42,928 nucleotides of DNA from the NCBI GenBank assembly GCA_026645775.1, contig JAPKMS010000154.1, positions 1-42,928 of the forward strand, written 5' to 3'. Positions within the stretch are counted from its first letter, which is position 1, and each line of letters starts with the position of its first letter. Under the pieces are notes generated by a model. It saw only the letters and a list, made by a program, of their open reading frames with translations, was not told the origin of the DNA and did no database searches. Shown piece after piece: positions 3,641-29,447 of this stretch. A program made the translations under genes and the position numbers. The stretch is from Anaerolineae bacterium. Its GTDB lineage: Bacteria > Chloroflexota > Anaerolineae > CG2-30-64-16.

Positions 3641-3748
3641 TGCCGCGCGTCTGGGGAAGGGGCTACGCCCCTTCCCCAGACCCCATCCCCCAGAACGCCA
3701 GCAGTCAGAAGTACGCAGAAATCAGAAATACAGCAATCAGAACGATAG
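3641..3748. repeat. VR1 3' flank, near-identical to the VR2 flank at 8844-8951; contains a 29-nt perfect hairpin (3651-3679)
   Basis: 108 bp aligned by eye with one mismatch to 8844-8951; ctggggaaggggc-tac-gccccttccccag. Confidence 0.9.
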
Positions 3749-6589
3749 GGACAACACCACCCGAAACCCGAAGTTCGTGTCGAAGCTGCCAGGTCCGAAG
3801 TCGAGGCGGTAGGCGCAGCGGGCGTACCACTGAAGATCGTACCACGACCCGCCCCGCACCACCCGGCGGCCTGCGGCTTCCAACTCGTTCCGGCCGTCAT
3901 CGTCCCGATACGGGTAGGGCTGATAGAGGCTGCGCGTCCACTCCCGGACGTTGCCTGCCAAATCATGGATACCTGACGGCGTGGCGCCATCGGGATACGC
4001 GCCGGCCGGGCTGGGGCACAGGACGTGCCCTTCCCAGGTGTTGGCGCAGCCGACATCCCAGCGATTGCCCCACGGATAACTGCGTCCACGCGCCCCACGC
4101 GCGGCAACCTCCCATTCGGCCTCGGTGGGCAGGCGCACCCCGTAGCCGTCCGGTACGCCGGCAACAGGATTGCCCGGCAGCGGGATCGGCTCACCGCCGC
4201 GCAGCCGCTCGTCCAGCCAGGCGCAGTACGCGTTGGCCTCGAACCAGTTGACCCCCACCACGGGCTGCAAAGGGCCGTTAAATCGTGCGTCGCGCCAGAA
4301 GGCCGGCCGGTCGTGCGGCCGATCGGCGTATTGCTTTTGCAGCCCTGCGCGCACCTCGTCTTCCGGCATGCGGAGCAGCTGCTCCCAGACCGCAATCGAC
4401 TGGGGACTCCAGCCCAACCTGCGCATCCGGCTCACCGGATCGGCCTCGGCGCGCAACGTCCGCCAGGCCGCCATGATGCCCTCGACGGCCCCGGTATCGG
4501 CCAGCTCGCCGGCCAGCCAGGCGCGGGCGGCCTCCGTGCGCCAGCACCCCTCCCCCTGGTAGCCGCCCGCGTCGATGAAACACGCGTACTCGGCGTTGGT
4601 CACCGGATACTGCCCGATCCAGAACGCCGGCAGTGCCACGCGGCGCCGCGGCTGCTCGTCTTCTGCCCACGTGACGCCGCGGCGCGCCAACAGCCAGACG
4701 TCCCAGCGGCTGGAGCCCATCGGAAACGCACCCGCCGGCACATGCACCAACGGCGGGACCAGGACGCGCGGGCCGGCGGCCGCGATCTCGCGGAAGCGCG
4801 GGTCGCCCAGCCGGCCCAGCGCATCGCCCGCGGCCAGCCGCGCGCGCAAGTGGACGCCGGGGTTGCCCAGGTCAGCCAGCAGGTCATTCTGTACGCCGCG
4901 CACCAGATCCTTGGGCCGATCGATCCCCGCTTCCACCAAGCAGCGCGCCGCCAGGACCGGATTGACCCTGCGCACGGCGTCGACGAACGCGGCCGGGTCG
5001 GCCGCCAGGCCTGCAGCCAGGATCGTCGGCTCCTCCCAGCGGGTGGACGGGGGCGGGGGCAGCGGCTCGTCGTCGGCCAGCGGGCCGGGATCCGGCATCT
5101 CGGCCGCCAGGCGGGGCTGGCGCCAGCGCTCCACCAGGTCTTCGCCCGCCGCGAAGCGCCCGACCATGGCCCGCGCTGCGAAATACTCCTGGAGCAGGTG
5201 GTGGTAAAAGCGCACCTTCTCGACCTCCGGCAGGCCTTCGCGCTCCAACAGGGTGGCGGCGTGCCCCAAGCGCAGCACAGCCTGGGGCGAGACGACCGTT
5301 TTGCCATCGGGGCCATCCACCTCGGCCGGGATGTGCGCCAGCATCTCGTGCCGCGGCAGCCGGGTGCCTGCGCCCAGCGGCTGGATGTGCTCCGCCAGGC
5401 CGGACAGGGCGTTGGCGAGCAGCGGCGCATCGATCCAGTCGGGGTGGCCGCGGCGTCCCTCGCGCCCCAGCAGCAGCTTAACGAAATCGCCGAACATCTG
5501 GGCCGGGTTGGCCGGCCACGCGCCCCCGCGTTCGATGATGAAGGCCAGGATGTTGAGGTAATAGGGGTTGCGCACCAGCGCCAGCAGCGGCGTGCCGTCC
5601 AGGCGCCGCCAGGCGTCGGCCGCGGCCTGGGGCGCCAGGTATTTGCCCAGGAACTCCTGCACGCGCGGGTCGTCCAGCGGCTCGATGGTCACCTGGGGCA
5701 GGCCCAACGGCTCGCTGTAGTCGCGCGTGCGACAGGTGAAGATGATCTGGTTGCCCGGCCACTCGCCCGCGAAGCGTGCCCACGCGCCCGCGCGCTGCCG
5801 GTAGTCGCGCGCATCGCGGAACGGCATCTCGTTCAGCGCGTCGCACAGCAAGCACACCTCTCCGCGCCGCAAGCGACCTGCCAGGTCATCACGGCCCAGG
5901 TGTTGCGCCCAGGCCGCCTCGATGAACGCGTAGGGCGAGGGATCATCCCGGTAGTCGGCCAGGGAGACCAGCAGCGGGATCGGCCCGGCGCCCGTACCCA
6001 GCCGCCGCCGCGCCGCGTCCAGCGCCACCTTGTAGAGGGTCGTGCTCTTGCCTGCGCCCGGCTCGCCCAACAGCGCCAGCGCCGGGTAGCGGGCCGTGGC
6101 CTCGGTGATGTCCTCCACCCGGACGGGGCGGAGCTGACGACTGGCGCCCTCGCCGTGAGGTTCCCACAACATGAACTCCGGCGGCACGTCACGGCCGCCC
6201 GGCGGTTGTTCGGCCGGGAGCGAGCCGGCCAGCGGCACGAACTGGCTGCCCCAACGGAGGGTATCCGGGTGAACCGCCAGGGCGGCCAGGTAGCCGCGCA
6301 CATCCCCGCGGCGGTCGGCGTGCGCCAGCAAGGCGCGTGCCGCCTCGGCCGAAAGGATGTTGGGCGGCCCACCCGGCGGGGTGATGGTCAGCCGCTCCCC
6401 CCGTAGGTCGGCGCACAGGTCGGGCTTGCCGGCCGCCAGCATCTCGATCAGCCGCGACAGCACCTCCTCTAACTGCTCGCCGGTGAAGATGTTGAACACG
6501 CTGAACTGGTCGCGGCCGATGAAGGCGCCGCCGCGGTTGTCCAGGTCGCCGCCGATGGCGGAGCCGTCGATGTGGGTGGGATCGGGCAT
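3737..6589 (-). CDS. NACHT/STAND NTPase with N-terminal shared motif and C-terminal FGE-sulfatase (C-type lectin fold) domain; DGR target 1
   Basis: GSAIGGDLDNRGGAFIGRD near N-terminus; Walker A LALLGEPGAGKSTTL; Walker B-like VCLLCDALNEMP; FGE blocks [48 protein letters not shown]...GFRVVLS. Confidence 0.93.
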   Translation of the reverse strand: MPDPTHIDGSAIGGDLDNRGGAFIGRDQFSVFNIFTGEQLEEVLSRLIEMLAAGKPDLCADLRGERLTITPPGGPPNILSAEAARALLAHADRRGDVRGYLAALAVHPDTLRWGSQFVPLAGSLPAEQPPGGRDVPPEFMLWEPHGEGASRQLRPVRVEDITEATARYPALALLGEPGAGKSTTLYKVALDAARRRLGTGAGPIPLLVSLADYRDDPSPYAFIEAAWAQHLGRDDLAGRLRRGEVCLLCDALNEMPFRDARDYRQRAGAWARFAGEWPGNQIIFTCRTRDYSEPLGLPQVTIEPLDDPRVQEFLGKYLAPQAAADAWRRLDGTPLLALVRNPYYLNILAFIIERGGAWPANPAQMFGDFVKLLLGREGRRGHPDWIDAPLLANALSGLAEHIQPLGAGTRLPRHEMLAHIPAEVDGPDGKTVVSPQAVLRLGHAATLLEREGLPEVEKVRFYHHLLQEYFAARAMVGRFAAGEDLVERWRQPRLAAEMPDPGPLADDEPLPPPPSTRWEEPTILAAGLAADPAAFVDAVRRVNPVLAARCLVEAGIDRPKDLVRGVQNDLLADLGNPGVHLRARLAAGDALGRLGDPRFREIAAAGPRVLVPPLVHVPAGAFPMGSSRWDVWLLARRGVTWAEDEQPRRRVALPAFWIGQYPVTNAEYACFIDAGGYQGEGCWRTEAARAWLAGELADTGAVEGIMAAWRTLRAEADPVSRMRRLGWSPQSIAVWEQLLRMPEDEVRAGLQKQYADRPHDRPAFWRDARFNGPLQPVVGVNWFEANAYCAWLDERLRGGEPIPLPGNPVAGVPDGYGVRLPTEAEWEVAARGARGRSYPWGNRWDVGCANTWEGHVLCPSPAGAYPDGATPSGIHDLAGNVREWTRSLYQPYPYRDDDGRNELEAAGRRVVRGGSWYDLQWYARCAYRLDFGPGSFDTNFGFRVVLSLSF
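3749..3869 (-). other. DGR variable repeat VR1
   Basis: 121 bp, ungapped match to TR 6985-7105; 14 differences, all at template adenines. Confidence 0.96.
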
Positions 6590-6640
6590 GGTTCGTTCTC
6601 ACAACCGGATAAAACAGCGGTTCAAAAGTACTTCTTTGCT

Positions 6641-6773
6641 GTCATGCTGAGCGGCTCTATGGCTCAAGGTCGGTTACGGCGAATGACCAGCGAAGCATCT
6701 CCACCGACGCACAAGACCCTTCGCTGGTTTCTGTTCGCAACGCGCTTCACGGGGCCAACCTGCTCAGGGTGAC
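6641..6773. mobile_element. Short MITE-like element with imperfect terminal inverted repeats, containing a full copy of a 61-bp dispersed repeat (6641-6701)
   Basis: gtcatgctgagcg (6641-6653) vs tgctcagggtgac (6761-6773; reverse complement gtcaccctgagca); 61-bp core shares its ends with 9386-9446 and 18609-18669. Confidence 0.6.
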
Positions 6774-6788
6774 ATAAGCTCGGCTGTA

Positions 6789-6827
6789 CCCCTGCGCCGC
6801 GCCGATGAGACGGACAGGGCGCAGGGG
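6789..6827. repeat. Inverted repeat (10-bp stem) between TR and NACHT gene 1
   Basis: cccctgcgcc (6789-6798) / ggcgcagggg (6818-6827). Confidence 0.7.
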
Positions 6828-6851
6828 CGTCCTGATATTTGGCCGGCGTTC

Positions 6852-6884
6852 AGAAACCCGGTTTCTCGCAGAAACCGGGTTTCT
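6852..6884. repeat. Perfect 15-bp-stem palindrome downstream of TR
   Basis: agaaacccggtttct-cgc-agaaaccgggtttct. Confidence 0.85.
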
Positions 6885-6984
6885 CACCCGCGCGACCGGG
6901 GCCGGACTGGGCTATCTTCTTCTCTTGGGGCGCCGTCCCGCACCCGTAGGTGACGGGAGTTACCGGCCGCTGAGAAGGGGTTAT

Positions 6985-7105
6985 GGACAACACCACCCGA
7001 AACCCGATGTTCGTGTTGAAGTTGTCAGGTTCGTTGTCGTTGCGGTAGGCGCAGCGGGCGTTCCTCTGATGATTGTTCCACGACCCGCCCCGCACCACCC
7101 GGCGG
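6985..7105 (-). other. DGR template repeat (TR)
   Basis: 121 bp non-target copy of VR1/VR2, 34 bp downstream of avd; rich in AAC codons on the minus strand (26 adenines), as in DGR templates. Confidence 0.95.
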
Positions 7106-7138
7106 TGCCAGCCCAGCCCTGAGAACGCAGCCTCACGG

Positions 7139-7486
7139 CTACGGTTTCTCCGAAGACGAAATCTTGTTTTGCCACCCGCCCAGCAGGCGCCCCACCTCCG
7201 TGACCATGCGAGCGCTGTGGCCGTACTGGCCCAGGCTGAGCAGTTCCAGGTCACGGCACAGCCGCAGGTAGAAGCGCAGCTTGGCCAGGGTCACGTCGGC
7301 CCGCTTCAACATGGGCAGCGGGTCGTCAGCGTAAGCGGCTTCGATCAGCCGCTCGTGGAAGTTCAGGGCCGTGCGCTGCACCCGCTCGGCCAGCACGAAG
7401 CGCTGCTGACGTGGGAACTTAACTGTAACCGGAATCAGCCAGCGGAGCAAGTCGTAAGTGCGCGAGAAGATGGGGGATTGTTTCAT
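7139..7486 (-). CDS. avd: DGR accessory variability determinant (Avd)-like four-helix bundle protein
   Basis: [55 protein letters not shown]...[37 protein letters not shown]: 23S-IVP/Avd-like family; adjacent to DGR RT and TR. Start trimmed from the longer track ORF 7139-7981. Confidence 0.9.
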
Positions 7487-7489
7487 TTT

Positions 7490-7567
7490 GCACCACTCGT
7501 CGGGCAATTGAAATCGCACCACTTGCCGGGCGATTGAAATCGCACCACTTGCCGGGCGATTGAAATC
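7490..7567. repeat. Three tandem copies of a 26-bp repeat between RT and avd
   Basis: gcaccactYgYcgggcRattgaaatc at 7490-7515, 7516-7541, 7542-7567; copies 2 and 3 identical. Confidence 0.95.
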
Positions 7568-7599
7568 GCTGCAACCAGCGCAAAGTCGCCCTTCGGCGA

Positions 7600-8724
7600 C
7601 TACCCACAGCCGACGCCGGTCGGCTTCGCGGCGGTTGCTGCGACTTCCAGTCGCACGGCGTCGGTCTGCGACTGTGTTGAACACAACAGCGCCCGGCGCA
7701 GGCCCCAGGTGTTCCCGTGCGCCGCGTGCGCCACCCAGCCCTGCACGCGCAGGCTGAGCTCGGCCGGCGACAACTCGCCGCGGGCGATCTGCCGGCGCCA
7801 CAGCCGCAGCCGCCGGGCGAACGCGACCCCGTTGCGGCGCTTCAGCCGCCGGTGATCGGAATAGACGCGGAACCCCAGGAATGGGATGCCGGTCGAGACC
7901 GGGTAAACCGTGCTTTCGCGCGCGTGGATGGTCAGCCGCAGGCCGGCCAGGAAGCCCTGGATGGCGTCCTTCCAGGCCCACAGCGCCCGTTTCTCGTCGG
8001 CAAAGAGCAGGAAATCATCCACGTAACGCAGATAGGCGGGGCAGCGTAACTCCCGCTTGACGAACTGGTCCAGCTCATTCAGATAGACGTTGGCCCAGAA
8101 CTGGCTGGTCAGGTTCCCGATGGGGAGGCCGCGCGGGCGCTCCACGGCGAACAGATCGTCGCCGGGGAAGTAGACCATCTCGTACTCATGCGCCAGCACG
8201 CCCGCACCGCCGGCCAGGATCTGATCGACCAGCCACAACGCCTGCGGGTCGGCGATCTTGCGTGCCAGGATGCCGCGGAGGAGGGTCAGATCGATGCTCG
8301 GAAAGAACTGCTCGACATCGCACTGCAAGACGTAAGGGTAACGCCGGCTGAACGCCTGGGCGCGATCCAGCGCGGCATGCGTGCCCTTGCCGACACGGTT
8401 GGCGTAGGAATCGCCGATGAAGGTCCGCTCGAAGAGCGGCTCGATGACGTTGCACAGCGCGTGGTGCACCACCCGGTCGCGAAACGGCGCGGCCGAGATC
8501 AGCCGGTGTTTGGGATCGCGGATGTAGAACGACGTGTACGGGCCCGGCCGGTAAGTCTGCGCGACCAGCTCATCCTGCAACCGGCACAGGGCCGCCTCCA
8601 CGTCAAACTCGAATGTGGCCACCGGCGCCTGCCCGCGTTTGCCCCTGGCCGCCTTGCGATAGGCGACGTACAGGTTTTCGAAGCTGGTCACTTCATCATA
8701 CAGATGGTTGAAACGTTTCGGCAT
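7600..8724 (-). CDS. DGR-type reverse transcriptase
   Basis: RT blocks: LISAAPFRDRVVHHALCNVIEPLFERTFIGDSYANRVGKGTHAALDRAQ, YVLQCDVEQFFPSID, LPIGNLTSQFWANVYLNELDQFVK, CPAYLRYVDDFLLFA; associated Avd/TR/VR. Confidence 0.96.
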   Translation of the reverse strand: MPKRFNHLYDEVTSFENLYVAYRKAARGKRGQAPVATFEFDVEAALCRLQDELVAQTYRPGPYTSFYIRDPKHRLISAAPFRDRVVHHALCNVIEPLFERTFIGDSYANRVGKGTHAALDRAQAFSRRYPYVLQCDVEQFFPSIDLTLLRGILARKIADPQALWLVDQILAGGAGVLAHEYEMVYFPGDDLFAVERPRGLPIGNLTSQFWANVYLNELDQFVKRELRCPAYLRYVDDFLLFADEKRALWAWKDAIQGFLAGLRLTIHARESTVYPVSTGIPFLGFRVYSDHRRLKRRNGVAFARRLRLWRRQIARGELSPAELSLRVQGWVAHAAHGNTWGLRRALLCSTQSQTDAVRLEVAATAAKPTGVGCG

Positions 8725-8843
8725 CGTCGGTCAAAAAAGCTAAATGACGAAGATCTCGAAGACGCTCGCCGCGGCGACTCCCTTCGTGGTCTTCGCGCTT
8801 CGTGAACTTCGCGGTGCTTGGCGCCTTCGTGGTCCAAACACCC

Positions 8844-8951
8844 TGCCGCGCGTCTGGGGAAGGGGCTACGCCCCTTCCCCAGACCCCATCCCCCAGAACG
8901 CCAGCAGACAGAAGTACGCAGAAATCAGAAATACAGCAATCAGAACGATAG
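8844..8951. repeat. VR2 3' flank duplicate of 3641-3748 with the same 29-nt hairpin (8854-8882)
   Basis: One mismatch over 108 bp versus the VR1 flank. Confidence 0.9.
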
Positions 8952-11900
8952 GGACAACACCACCCGAAACCCGATGATCGTGTTGAAGAGGTCAGGTCCG
9001 TCGTCGATGCGGTAGGCGCAGCGGGCGTTCCTCTGATGATTGTTCCACGACCCGCCCCGCACCACCCGGCGGCCTGCGGCTTCCAACTCGTTCCGGCCGT
9101 CATCGTCCCGATACGGATAATCCTGGAACAGGCCCAAAGTCCACTCCCAGACGTTGCCGGTCAGGTCGTGCAGCCCCGCCGCGTCCTGGGCTGTGGCGCC
9201 GCGCGGGTACATGCCGGCCGGCGAAGCATGGGCGATGCGCCCTTCGATGTTGGCCCGCTCATCGTCCCAAGGCTCGTTCCCCCAGGCGTAGACCCGCCCG
9301 TCCTGCCCGCGCGCCGCGCGCTCCCATTCGGCCTCGGTGGGCAGGCGCACCTCGTAGCCGGCCGGGAGCAGGTTGCCCGCACCCGGAGATGCTTCGCTGG
9401 ACTCTCGCCGCGATGCACCTTGAGCCACGGACCCGCTCAGCATGACAGCAGGCAGAATGCTAGCGTTCAGCCAGCGGCAGTAGGCCACCGCCTCGAACCA
9501 CGAAACCCCCATCACCGGCCGATTGGGATGGAGCCGCTGCTCGTCCCACCCCATCGGCTCCCCACGGCGTTCCGGCGAACGCGTCTTCAGCCAGTCGCGG
9601 CCGGCGGCGGTCCACCAGGGTGCGTCCTCGGCGTAGCCGCCGGCGGCCACGAACGCCGCCATCTGCGCCACCGTGGTCGGGTAGCGCGCGATCCAGTACC
9701 GGTAGGGGATCTGTACCTGCGGTGGGTTGCCAAGCTCGTCAGAGTACGCATCTTTGTCGCCTTTCCGGCTGCCCATCACGAACGGCCCGGCCGGGATCTC
9801 TACGAAGCCGTGCAGCGGCTCCGGTTGGCCCCGGTAACGGCACGGCAGAGCGTAGAAATCCGGGTCAAAGCGCGGGTCGCCCAGTTGGGCCAGGATGTCG
9901 CCGGCCGCGGCGCGCTCGGCCGCGGGCAGGCGTCCTTCCTCCACCAGGCGCTCCAGCCAGCGCCGGGTGCGGTCGACGATGGCCTGGCAATGCGGCTGGG
10001 TGCAGGCTTCGGCGGGCAGCTTGAGCTCCAGAGCAGCCTGGCCGGCCAGCGCAGCCGCACGCCAATGCGCATCCGTGATGCGGGCGACCCGCTCCGGCTC
10101 CTGCGGCAGCAGCGTGTTGATCACGTTGACCGCATCTCCCAGCCCGCCCTGGCGCTTCTTGCCCACTCCCAGCAGGAAGACCTCACGCCACCAGGCCGCG
10201 TCCTCGGTCACCAGGTCGCGCAGCCGGGCCGCGAACTCAGCCTCGGTGCGCGCCAGGTGGCAGGCCGCCAGGTACTCCTGGAAGGAACGATGGGGGAAGG
10301 CGTAGATCCCCTCGCGGCGCGCCACCAGCAGGCCGGTACGATTCTTGAGGTAACGCAGGAGTTCATCAGGGTCCAGGCTGCCCAGCAGCGGCTTGAAGGC
10401 CACCAGCACGTCCCCCTCGGCCACGTCGGCCGGGCCGTCGTCCCGCTCCGGCCCCTGCCGCTGCCGGTCATGCGCCGCGAAGGCCAGCGCCTCCAGCGCC
10501 GCGCGGATGCGCTCCTCGCCCGCGCCCAGCGCCTGCGTGATGCCGGGCTCCATCACCGGCTCGCCGTCGGGGCTCTTGGTCTCGCTCAACCGTTGCCAGC
10601 GGCCCAACAGCAGCTTCACCGTCTCCTCGTACAGCCCCGCGCGGTCTTCGGGCAGTTGGCCCCAACTGGAGTGCAGCGTGGCCATTAACGTCAACAGCAG
10701 CGGCCGCGAGGCCAGGTCGGCCAGGTAGGCGCGCTCGTTCAGCGCGGCCTGCAACCGGCGCCCCTTGTCGCGCGCCAGATCGGACCCCCATCCCATGAAG
10801 GGCCGCACCGCGTCGTACCAGCGATCCACGAACCGGCCGATCTGCGCCTCGTTGAACGGCGCCAGCGCCAGGGTGGTGAAACGGGGCAGCCGCCACTGCC
10901 GGTCGGCGTAGGCGTAGGGCCGGGCCGTCACCAGGATGCGCGACGGGGTCTTGCCCAGCACGTCAGCCAGCTCGCGCACCGCGGCCAGCAGCACTGCGCG
11001 GCGGCGCCGCGCCTCGGGCACCTCATCCAGCCCATCCAGCAGGATGAAACCGCCCTCCCGCAGCAGCCGGTCGCGCAGGTAGGGCAGGAGCTTGTCCGCG
11101 GCATCAGCTCCCAGCCGCGCCGCGATGTCGCCGTGCAGCGCGGCCCACAACATCTGCGCCGTGCCCGCCGTCACCTCGGCCGGGATATGGCGCGCGGCCA
11201 CGTCGCGCAGCACCAGGCGCACCGGCAAGAGGCCGCGCCAACCCTCAGGCAGCGCCGGGCTGCCCCCGCACAGCAAATAAGCCAGGTAGTTCACGAACGT
11301 CGTCTTGCCGGAACCCGGATCGCCCAGGAGCACTGTCCGGGCCGCGGCCGGCGCGGCCAGCGCCTTCAGCAGCGACGCCCGGTCGCCGCCTTCCCCGCGC
11401 ATCAGCCGCAGCGCCCAGGTGCGCTCAGCCCGGGCCGACTTCTCAGGTTTGTCGGTGCTGCCGGGCCTCTCCTCCGCCGCGGTCACCACGTCCAGGTCCA
11501 CGTAGATGTCGGGCAGCGGGATCGGCTGCACCCCGCTCGTGCGCACATACTCGACGTCGATCACGCCCAGCGGCAGCCGGCAGCATTCGGCGGCCAGCGA
11601 CGTGTAGTAAGCCTGCATCAAGTCCAGCGGCGGCGCTTCCGGCGTGACGTTCACCGTCAGGTCGCGGCCGGCCAAGAGACCGCCCCGGTTATCCACCTTC
11701 CCACCGAAGAAGCTGCCGCCGATGTGTGCCGTCCCGGCCGCCACCTCCTCCAGGAGGTCGATGATGGCCGGCAGGTCGGAGCGGGGCACGCTGTGTTCTC
11801 TGTATCGGCGGATCAGCTCATCCCCGACCGCCTCGGCGACCCTGGCAGCCAGCTCCTCCGCGTCCCGGTACGTCGCATACTTCACCCCCAGCGATTGTGC

Positions 11901-27045: not shown

Positions 27046-27804
27046 ATGATGCTGACGCCACAACTGGAAAGAGCCCAACAAGCGATCCGCGGCCGCCATG
27101 CGCCGGGGTTCACCTGGATTCTTAACGAGACAGGCCCCTGGACACCGCTGCGAAAACCGTTGGCGCAAACCACTGTGGCGCTTGCCAGCACCTGCGGCCT
27201 ATATCGGGCTGACACGCAGCTCCCCTTTGGTGCTTGGAACGACTGGGGCGATCCTTCCTTCCGCGAAATCCACACCGACACACCGACGGAAAGGCTGCGT
27301 ATCGCCCACACCCATTACGAGCACACGCATGTGGCCGCCGATCCCGGCGTAGCGCTGCCGATCGAACATCTGCATCGGCTGGCGGCTGAGGGTATCATCG
27401 GCCAGCTCCACCCGTGGGCCTACAGCTTCCTGGGGTTTCTGCCCGAGGCCGGACAACTCCTGGCGGAGACCGCACCCCTGGTTGCCGAGCGGCTCCGCAC
27501 AGAGGGGGTGGAAGCCGCACTCCTCACCCCGTGCTGACTGGTGTGCCAGCAGTCCGTTGGACTGATTGCACGGGTGTTTGAGGAGCACGGCCTGACGACA
27601 GTATGCCTGACGATGAACCGGGACATCGCCGAAAACGTCCGGGCGCCGCGGGCCCTGTGGGTGCACTTTCCGTACGGCGCGCCGCTGGGTCCGGCCCATC
27701 AGCCGGAGACGCAGCTCGCCGTCATCCGTGAGGCGTTGGCCCTCCTGGAGAGCGCGACCCAGCCGGGGACCATCGTCGAGGCGGCCACGGATTGGCCCGA
27801 ATGA
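27046..27804 (+). CDS. Glycine/sarcosine/D-proline reductase selenoprotein B-like family; in-frame UGA (27535-27537) read as Sec
   Basis: Track ORFs 27046-27537 and 27541-27804 are in the same frame separated only by TGA: ...ALLTPC[U]LVCQQSVGLIARVFEEHGLTTVCLTMNRDIAENVRAPRALWVHFPYGAPLG; UxxC motif. Confidence 0.85.
27550..27564 (+). promoter_or_regulatory. Putative bacterial SECIS hairpin
   Basis: CAGTCC-GTT-GGACTG, loop begins 19 nt after the UGA, G in first loop position. Confidence 0.7.
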
Positions 27805-27826
27805 CCCTTGCCCAAGAGAGGGAAAG

Positions 27827-28081
27827 ATGAAAATCACCATCGAATTCTGCGTCGCTTGAAACTACACCCCAAGAGCCGCCAGTATGGCGGAGGCATTGGT
27901 TAACACGTTCAAGCCGCTGCTGGGCACACCGCATCCCATCCAGGAGCTCGTGCTCATCCCTTCCAGTGGGGGGCGGTATGAGGTAACCCTTGACGGGGAG
28001 GTGGTCTATTCCAAGGCGGCCACCCATCAACACACAACGAACGAGTATGTTATCGAGCAGGTTCGCAAACGCCTGAAATAG
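27827..28081 (+). CDS. SelW/Rdx-family selenoprotein (CxxU)
   Basis: MKITIEFCVA[U]NYTPRAASMAEALVNTFKPLLGTPHPIQELVLIPSSGGRYEVTLDGEVVYSKAATHQHTTNEYVIEQVRKRLK; TGA at 27857-27859 in frame. Confidence 0.9.
27876..27890 (+). promoter_or_regulatory. Putative bacterial SECIS hairpin
   Basis: CCGCCA-GTA-TGGCGG, loop begins 23 nt after the UGA. Confidence 0.7.
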
Positions 28082-28103: not shown

Positions 28104-29447
28104 ATGGATCTATCGCTGCTTTTCACGATCGCACTCATCTTTCTGGTCACCTTGATCGGCGCTTACGTGCGCTCCAGGGTCAAAGACCGTTGCCTCAAAT
28201 CCTTCGAGCGGCACCACGTCACGCTCGAAAAGACCGGGGGCAAACTGGTGTGGGGCGTCATGCGTCTGGAGCCGACCGGGCTGGAGTTTACCTACCTCGA
28301 CAGCGTACAAGATGAAAACCACATTGAGTCCACGTATCTGCTTTACGCCAGCGAGTACCCCGAAATCCAGGCGATCTATCGTTACGAGGACGGCCTCTCG
28401 GAATGGGGGCGCAAACAGCGAGCCAAAGACATCCAGCGCGCATTCCACCCCGGGCCATTTCGTCGGATGGGGCGCTGGGTTCGCAACTTCCTGATCACAG
28501 CCACTGATTCGCTGAACGAGGTCCTGGGGATGGTGGTAGGCCGCGTGCAGAAGACCGGCGCCCGCTATCTGACCGCTGAGGGCAGTGGCGCGCTCACCAA
28601 GCTGGGCGGCAAAGTGCTGGGGCAGGTGGGCAACATCTACGATCCGCTGCTGGAACGCTATATCGGCCATCGCGTCGTGATCGAGCTGACCGAAGACAAT
28701 GAGACCCACGAACACGTCGGCATCTTCAAGGAATACTCCGCCGATTTCATCGAGGTGCTCGACATCCAGTATCCGCAAGCCAAGGTCGTCCCCCTCAGCG
28801 CCAACACCGGTATTCAATCCCAGCAGTTATCGGCTACGCTGCACGAGGACCGTTTGCGCGTCACCAACCAGGATGCGTGGCCGATCCTCATCCGTTCGGT
28901 GCAAGGCGCTGAGACCGAAGAGTTGATCAACGCAGTTGTGGATACCGGTGAGACCATCGATTTGAATGTGAGGCAGCATGGCTCGGACAGGGTCCGCCTG
29001 AACATCCAAGTGGTGCGCGAGCTGGATCTGATCGTGCCGCGCTCCCGCTGCGTGGTGCGCCATCGGGCTGAGGCCAAGCCGCCTGCCGAACTGGCCGACG
29101 AAATCTTCGATCTCATTTTTGACCTGGGCACGGTGATCCGGGAGGATGAGATGACCCTGGCGCGCGAGAAACGCCTGCGCGAGGAGTTGGCCCGCAATCC
29201 CAAGGATGCCCTCGCTGCTGCGAACCTGGGCGGCCTGCTGCTTCAGCGGGACGCCGCGGTTGAGGCCGAAAAATGGCTCCGCCTCGCCCTGACCATGGAA
29301 TATTCATTGCCGGATGGCGGGCGCCGCGCCCGGATGCAGTTGCGCGAATTAACGCGCCGCACATCGGAGGACGGGGCGCACCGGGTGATCTTGCAAGAGA
29401 CGTCGATCCCCTCAGAACCCGCGGCCGATATCGGCCCGCAGATCTGA
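28104..29447 (+). CDS. Membrane-anchored hypothetical protein with C-terminal TPR-like region
   Basis: N-terminal TM (LLFTIALIFLVTLIGAYV); LREELARNPKDALAAANLGGLLLQRDAAVEAEKWLRLAL. Confidence 0.7.
   Translation: MDLSLLFTIALIFLVTLIGAYVRSRVKDRCLKSFERHHVTLEKTGGKLVWGVMRLEPTGLEFTYLDSVQDENHIESTYLLYASEYPEIQAIYRYEDGLSEWGRKQRAKDIQRAFHPGPFRRMGRWVRNFLITATDSLNEVLGMVVGRVQKTGARYLTAEGSGALTKLGGKVLGQVGNIYDPLLERYIGHRVVIELTEDNETHEHVGIFKEYSADFIEVLDIQYPQAKVVPLSANTGIQSQQLSATLHEDRLRVTNQDAWPILIRSVQGAETEELINAVVDTGETIDLNVRQHGSDRVRLNIQVVRELDLIVPRSRCVVRHRAEAKPPAELADEIFDLIFDLGTVIREDEMTLAREKRLREELARNPKDALAAANLGGLLLQRDAAVEAEKWLRLALTMEYSLPDGGRRARMQLRELTRRTSEDGAHRVILQETSIPSEPAADIGPQI

Follow-up and report, generated by a model that had tools for sequence, protein, structure and literature searches.

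The window analysed here, i.e., the whole stretch of 42,928 nucleotides, contains two adjacent genes on the same strand, 22 nt apart, each of which has a single UGA within its frame (Table 1). In the PrdB/GrdB-like gene, the UGA lies in the codon series ACC CCG TGC TGA CTG GTG TGC (TPC-U-LVC), and in the SelW/Rdx-family gene it lies in the series TTC TGC GTC GCT TGA AAC TAC (FCVA-U-NY, with CVAU as the CxxU motif). An earlier note on this DNA had placed the interrupting triplets at exactly these positions and had proposed that both frames run on past them; indeed, both are open up to their own stops, and standard gene calling would, as was also foreseen, split or truncate both genes at the internal stop.

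Table 1. Predicted features of the selenoprotein locus (positions refer to the window)
Feature	Position	Strand	Remarks
PrdB/GrdB-like gene, predicted selenoprotein	27046..27804	+	252 aa; Sec164 in UxxC; stop TGA 27802-27804
Predicted Sec-encoding in-frame UGA, U164 (PrdB-like)	27535..27537	+	TGA in 31 distinct class homologues; Cys in 4 alphaproteobacterial homologues
SECIS-like hairpin 1 (PrdB-like), CAGTCC-GTT-GGACTG	27550..27564	+	first loop nt +19 from UGA
SelW/Rdx-family gene, predicted selenoprotein	27827..28081	+	84 aa; Sec11 in CxxU; stop TAG 28079-28081
Predicted Sec-encoding in-frame UGA, U11 (Rdx)	27857..27859	+	TGA in 30 distinct homologues; Cys, same column, in six UGA-less loci
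SECIS-like hairpin 2 (Rdx), CCGCCA-GTA-TGGCGG	27876..27890	+	first loop nt +23 from UGA
447-aa ORF	28104..29447	+	no Pfam match; start 22 nt past Rdx stop

Both family assignments of the earlier note held up in profile searches. The Rdx protein exceeds the cut-offs of Pfam Rdx (PF10262; 67.8 bits, cut-off 22.6) and of TIGR02174 (51.2 bits, cut-off 34.2), is related to SelW-like proteins of solved structure, and would be a small thioredoxin-fold redox protein with a CxxU centre. The PrdB-like protein matches Pfam GRDB above the cut-off (32.5 bits, cut-off 22), and its closest NCBIfam model is TIGR04483 (PrdB), to which it aligns over profile positions 20-228 of 238 with 136.7 bits, missing the equivalog cut-off of 300. 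A PrdA/GrdE-type pyruvoyl subunit (PF09338) had no match in the window's own genome, in a search in which no control genome had a match either. Given this TIGR04483 score, far short of the equivalog level, and the lack of a match to the PrdA/GrdE-type subunit, the gene is best regarded as PrdB-like rather than as a D-proline reductase gene, and its product would act as a stand-alone selenol/thiol oxidoreductase and not as a subunit of D-proline reductase. Neither a PDB sequence search nor Foldseek retrieved a significant structural relative of this protein. Its AlphaFold2 model (mean pLDDT 93, pTM 0.92) has the UxxC motif at the start of a helix that follows a beta strand, a predicted placement that would be expected of a redox centre.

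In another part of the window (3641-9143), the minus strand carries a reverse transcriptase ORF (7600-8724; RVT_1, 60.5 bits), the ORFs around it have a common VVRGGSW-type tail, and three 124-nt repeats that are 88-100% alike lie at 3746, 6982 and 8949. This region looks like a putative diversity-generating retroelement.

A PrdB-like gene was detected in 65 and an Rdx gene in 178 of 396 class genomes; at the level of the phylum, 102 of 400 sampled genomes had a PrdB-like gene. Nearly all full-length PrdB-like matches at the class level have one in-frame TGA, as do most of the Rdx matches listed; the UGA is conserved in the 31 and 30 distinct class genes, respectively, and TGA occupies the motif position in all 30 PrdB-like loci that were read following the phylum search. 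Cys is encoded at this position in four alphaproteobacterial PrdB-like homologues, three of them from Bradyrhizobium, which were retrieved by a contig scan with a Cys-codon pattern and served as Cys controls, and the UGA-less Rdx loci have Cys at the UGA column (CxxC) in six of six cases read. The earlier note had called for an alignment with Cys homologues and had regarded homologues devoid of Cys and Sec at both UGA positions as contrary evidence; the homologues have Sec or Cys at both. Some PrdB-like homologues in the phylum (families f76, f94 and f68) are free of an internal stop and are probably Cys forms; several come from genomes that measure 8-14 Mb. The identity of the PrdB-like protein to its four nearest homologues is 59-65% upstream of the UGA and 64-68% downstream.

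Each UGA is followed by a perfect 6-bp stem with a GUN triloop at the distance that had been claimed, and both genes thus have what characterizes bacterial selenoprotein genes, a hairpin shortly 3' of the UGA with a G in its small apical loop. Among the 1072 TGA triplets on the two strands of the window, only seven (0.65%) are followed by a stem of this strict 6-bp type with a G-first triloop, and therefore two adjacent hairpins of this kind at family-typical active sites are unlikely to have arisen by chance. Taken singly, the two window hairpins are unremarkable in comparison with synonymous-codon shuffles (p about 0.37 for hairpin 1 and 0.11 for hairpin 2), and it is the comparative evidence, not the window sequence alone, that makes them convincing. 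The mean best stem is 7.5 bp in the PrdB-like family versus 4.7 bp in synonymous-codon shuffles, and 6.0 bp versus 4.1 bp in the Rdx family, each exceeding all 200 shuffled sets. In alignments chosen for a common register, which somewhat flatters the paired percentage, 99.3% of the cells are paired in 23 PrdB-like genes and 97.5% in 27 Rdx genes, with two-sided changes at three and four pairs, respectively. The covariation scores of 0.389 (hairpin 1) and 0.260 (hairpin 2) were matched by none of 500 shuffles, and slid registers gave a pairing of only 15-54% in the two hairpin alignments. Most pairs still hold when all 31 PrdB-like and 30 Rdx genes are included without register selection, and the long stem is lost in the four Cys homologues of PrdB. 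In a subgroup of PrdB-like loci (L071, L072, L075, L077, L079, L082 and L083), which have the motif UPxCxxNVPVLAR or a similar one, the loop of the best stem is located at about +21 to +24 and not at +19.

The machinery for Sec decoding was searched for in the genome to which the window belongs, a 98% complete assembly of 4.38 Mb in 478 contigs. It encodes selA (579 bits, cut-off 268), selB (334 bits together with its in-frame neighbour, cut-off 242) and selD (375 bits, cut-off 125; contig C270, 2017-2952, loci L017 and L022). The selD gene has an in-frame TGA of its own, from which it is probably a third selenoprotein gene. Nothing in the assembly reached the Rfam RF01852 cut-off for tRNA-Sec; all matches to this model (at most 44.9 bits) were assigned by ARAGORN to tRNA-Leu, tRNA-Ser and other tRNAs. 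A search of the assembly with the anticodon arm conserved in the selC genes of relatives also yielded no tRNA-Sec, its matches in contigs C101, C275 and C312 not being tRNAs. In most of 20 relatives, tRNA-Sec was found at 66-78 bits, and ARAGORN confirmed it in nine of nine loci checked. One relative, G003, has a radical-SAM gene with selC immediately upstream, and the orthologue of this gene in the window's genome (77% identical) is located at positions 156-1172 of contig C11. The stretch in front of it (C11:1-155, L131) opens with the ten bases TCATACACGA, which in G003 begin 8 nt past the selC end. As C11 begins about 8 nt from the expected end of selC, the synteny with G003 suggests that its absence is likely due to an assembly gap. 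Thus, of the four sel genes to be checked according to the earlier note, selA, selB and selD are present and selC is absent from the assembly, its syntenic place being a contig start; of the lack of selB and tRNA-Sec, which the note had named as an argument against Sec, the assembly shows only that of tRNA-Sec.

The best explanation of the locus, and in all probability the correct one, is that it comprises two real and probably co-transcribed selenoprotein genes in which UGA is read as Sec. At the sequence level, this reading is based on frames that are open through one UGA each, on conserved Sec/Cys sites, and on covarying hairpins at 19 and 23 nt; with the presence of selA, selB and selD and the equal conservation of the regions flanking the UGA, Sec decoding at both positions is supported. 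According to the established bacterial pathway, SelD would make selenophosphate, SelA would turn Ser-tRNA-Sec into Sec-tRNA-Sec, and hairpin-bound SelB would bring the latter to the UGA.

Alternatively, both genes could be decaying, with UGAs that go back to nonsense mutation or sequencing error, and this would be in line with the fragmented assembly and with the splitting of both genes by ORF callers. However, the same UGA is retained across many genera, the protein identity is equal on either side of it, and the hairpins covary, so that pseudogenes are scarcely conceivable. It is also very improbable that a reassigned tRNA or a suppressor tRNA reads the UGA as Trp or Cys: the assembly of the window's genome indeed lacks tRNA-Sec, but UGA also terminates the PrdB-like gene, selA, selB and selD are present, relatives have a typical tRNA-Sec, the expected place of selC is a contig start, and the SECIS-like hairpins are conserved. 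Both alternatives were rejected in view of the conservation of UGA and hairpins, the Sec machinery, and the use of UGA as a genuine stop.

From the clustering of the two genes, the earlier note had also proposed a shared redox function, and this was the weakest part of its claims. The genes are adjacent in four genera of one family (G000, which is the window's own genome, G001, G004 and G005), which speaks for the proposal, but sister genera can have one of them next to no copy of the other. G007 has the downstream gene immediately after its PrdB-like gene, and no Rdx gene was found there; in G002, Rdx is flanked by Elp3 and the downstream gene, with no PrdB-like gene; and the Rdx orthologue of G003 has no PrdB-like neighbour. 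No Rdx gene was present near the other PrdB-like loci fetched, within the stretch examined (mostly about 1.5 kb per side). Since the pair was seen only in these four genera and sister genera can have either gene alone, the pairing is a lineage-specific and easily disrupted arrangement, and as such is weak evidence for a joint function. The 447-aa ORF is probably co-transcribed with the pair. It has a homologue directly 3' of Rdx or PrdB-like also in G001, G002, G004 and G007, and with five genera, including its own, it is more constant at the locus than the pair itself.

The two proteins might work as a two-component redox module, the small CxxU protein handing electrons or a substrate on to the PrdB-like UxxC protein in the way that GrdA serves GrdB. 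The 22-nt gap, the common strand and the retention of the pair in four genera would fit, and the motifs correspond to those that a 2026 review (PMC13188914) gives for GrdA (CxxU) and GrdB (UxxC). Nevertheless, this is rather unlikely given the single genes of G007, G002 and G003, the PrdB-like loci devoid of a nearby Rdx gene, and the failure to find a PF09338 subunit in the window's genome in a search without a positive control. The two proteins might exchange electrons or substrate directly; that they constitute a new two-selenoprotein module, in which a stand-alone UxxC PrdB-like protein and a CxxU Rdx protein would exchange electrons or bound substrate like GrdB and GrdA, but without a pyruvoyl subunit, is doubtful and a shade less likely still.

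With this locus, the lineage gains well-supported selenoproteins, both of which automatic annotation would cut short. The locus also documents a PrdB-like/Rdx gene pair that is specific to the lineage, and it draws attention to a subfamily of PrdB-like selenoproteins that is widespread (102 of 400 phylum genomes), resembles the PrdB of D-proline reductase and probably has another role. Papers of 2005 and 2008 (PMC1088965, PMC2398784) had already reported both families as abundant selenoproteins of bacteria. The window Rdx has the CxxU motif, the length, the profile matches and the SECIS-like hairpin of bacterial SelW-like/Rdx proteins (PF10262, TIGR02174; PMC1088965, PMC2398784), and nothing sets it apart from them; compared with many class homologues, it carries some six additional residues around the HPI region, which are common to its close relatives. 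With the PrdB-type proline reductase selenoproteins, of which 235 Sec forms were reported from the GOS marine metagenomes (PMC2398784), and with D-proline reductase PrdB (TIGR04483), the PrdB-like protein shares the UxxC motif and homology over most of the profile, but it differs in its score (136.7 bits versus the equivalog cut-off of 300), in that no PrdA/GrdE-type subunit was found, and in adjoining Rdx. The PrdB-like/Rdx combination is not among the pairs in the operon section of the 2026 review, and no mention of it was found in the open-licence literature. Thus, neither protein family is new; the only thing that appears to be undescribed is the juxtaposition of the two genes in this bacterial family. 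In having two neighbouring selenoprotein genes with redox motifs, it resembles the known pairs and operons given in that section, i.e., grdA-grdB, prdB-prdC, and Prx with a SELENOW-like gene (PMC13188914).
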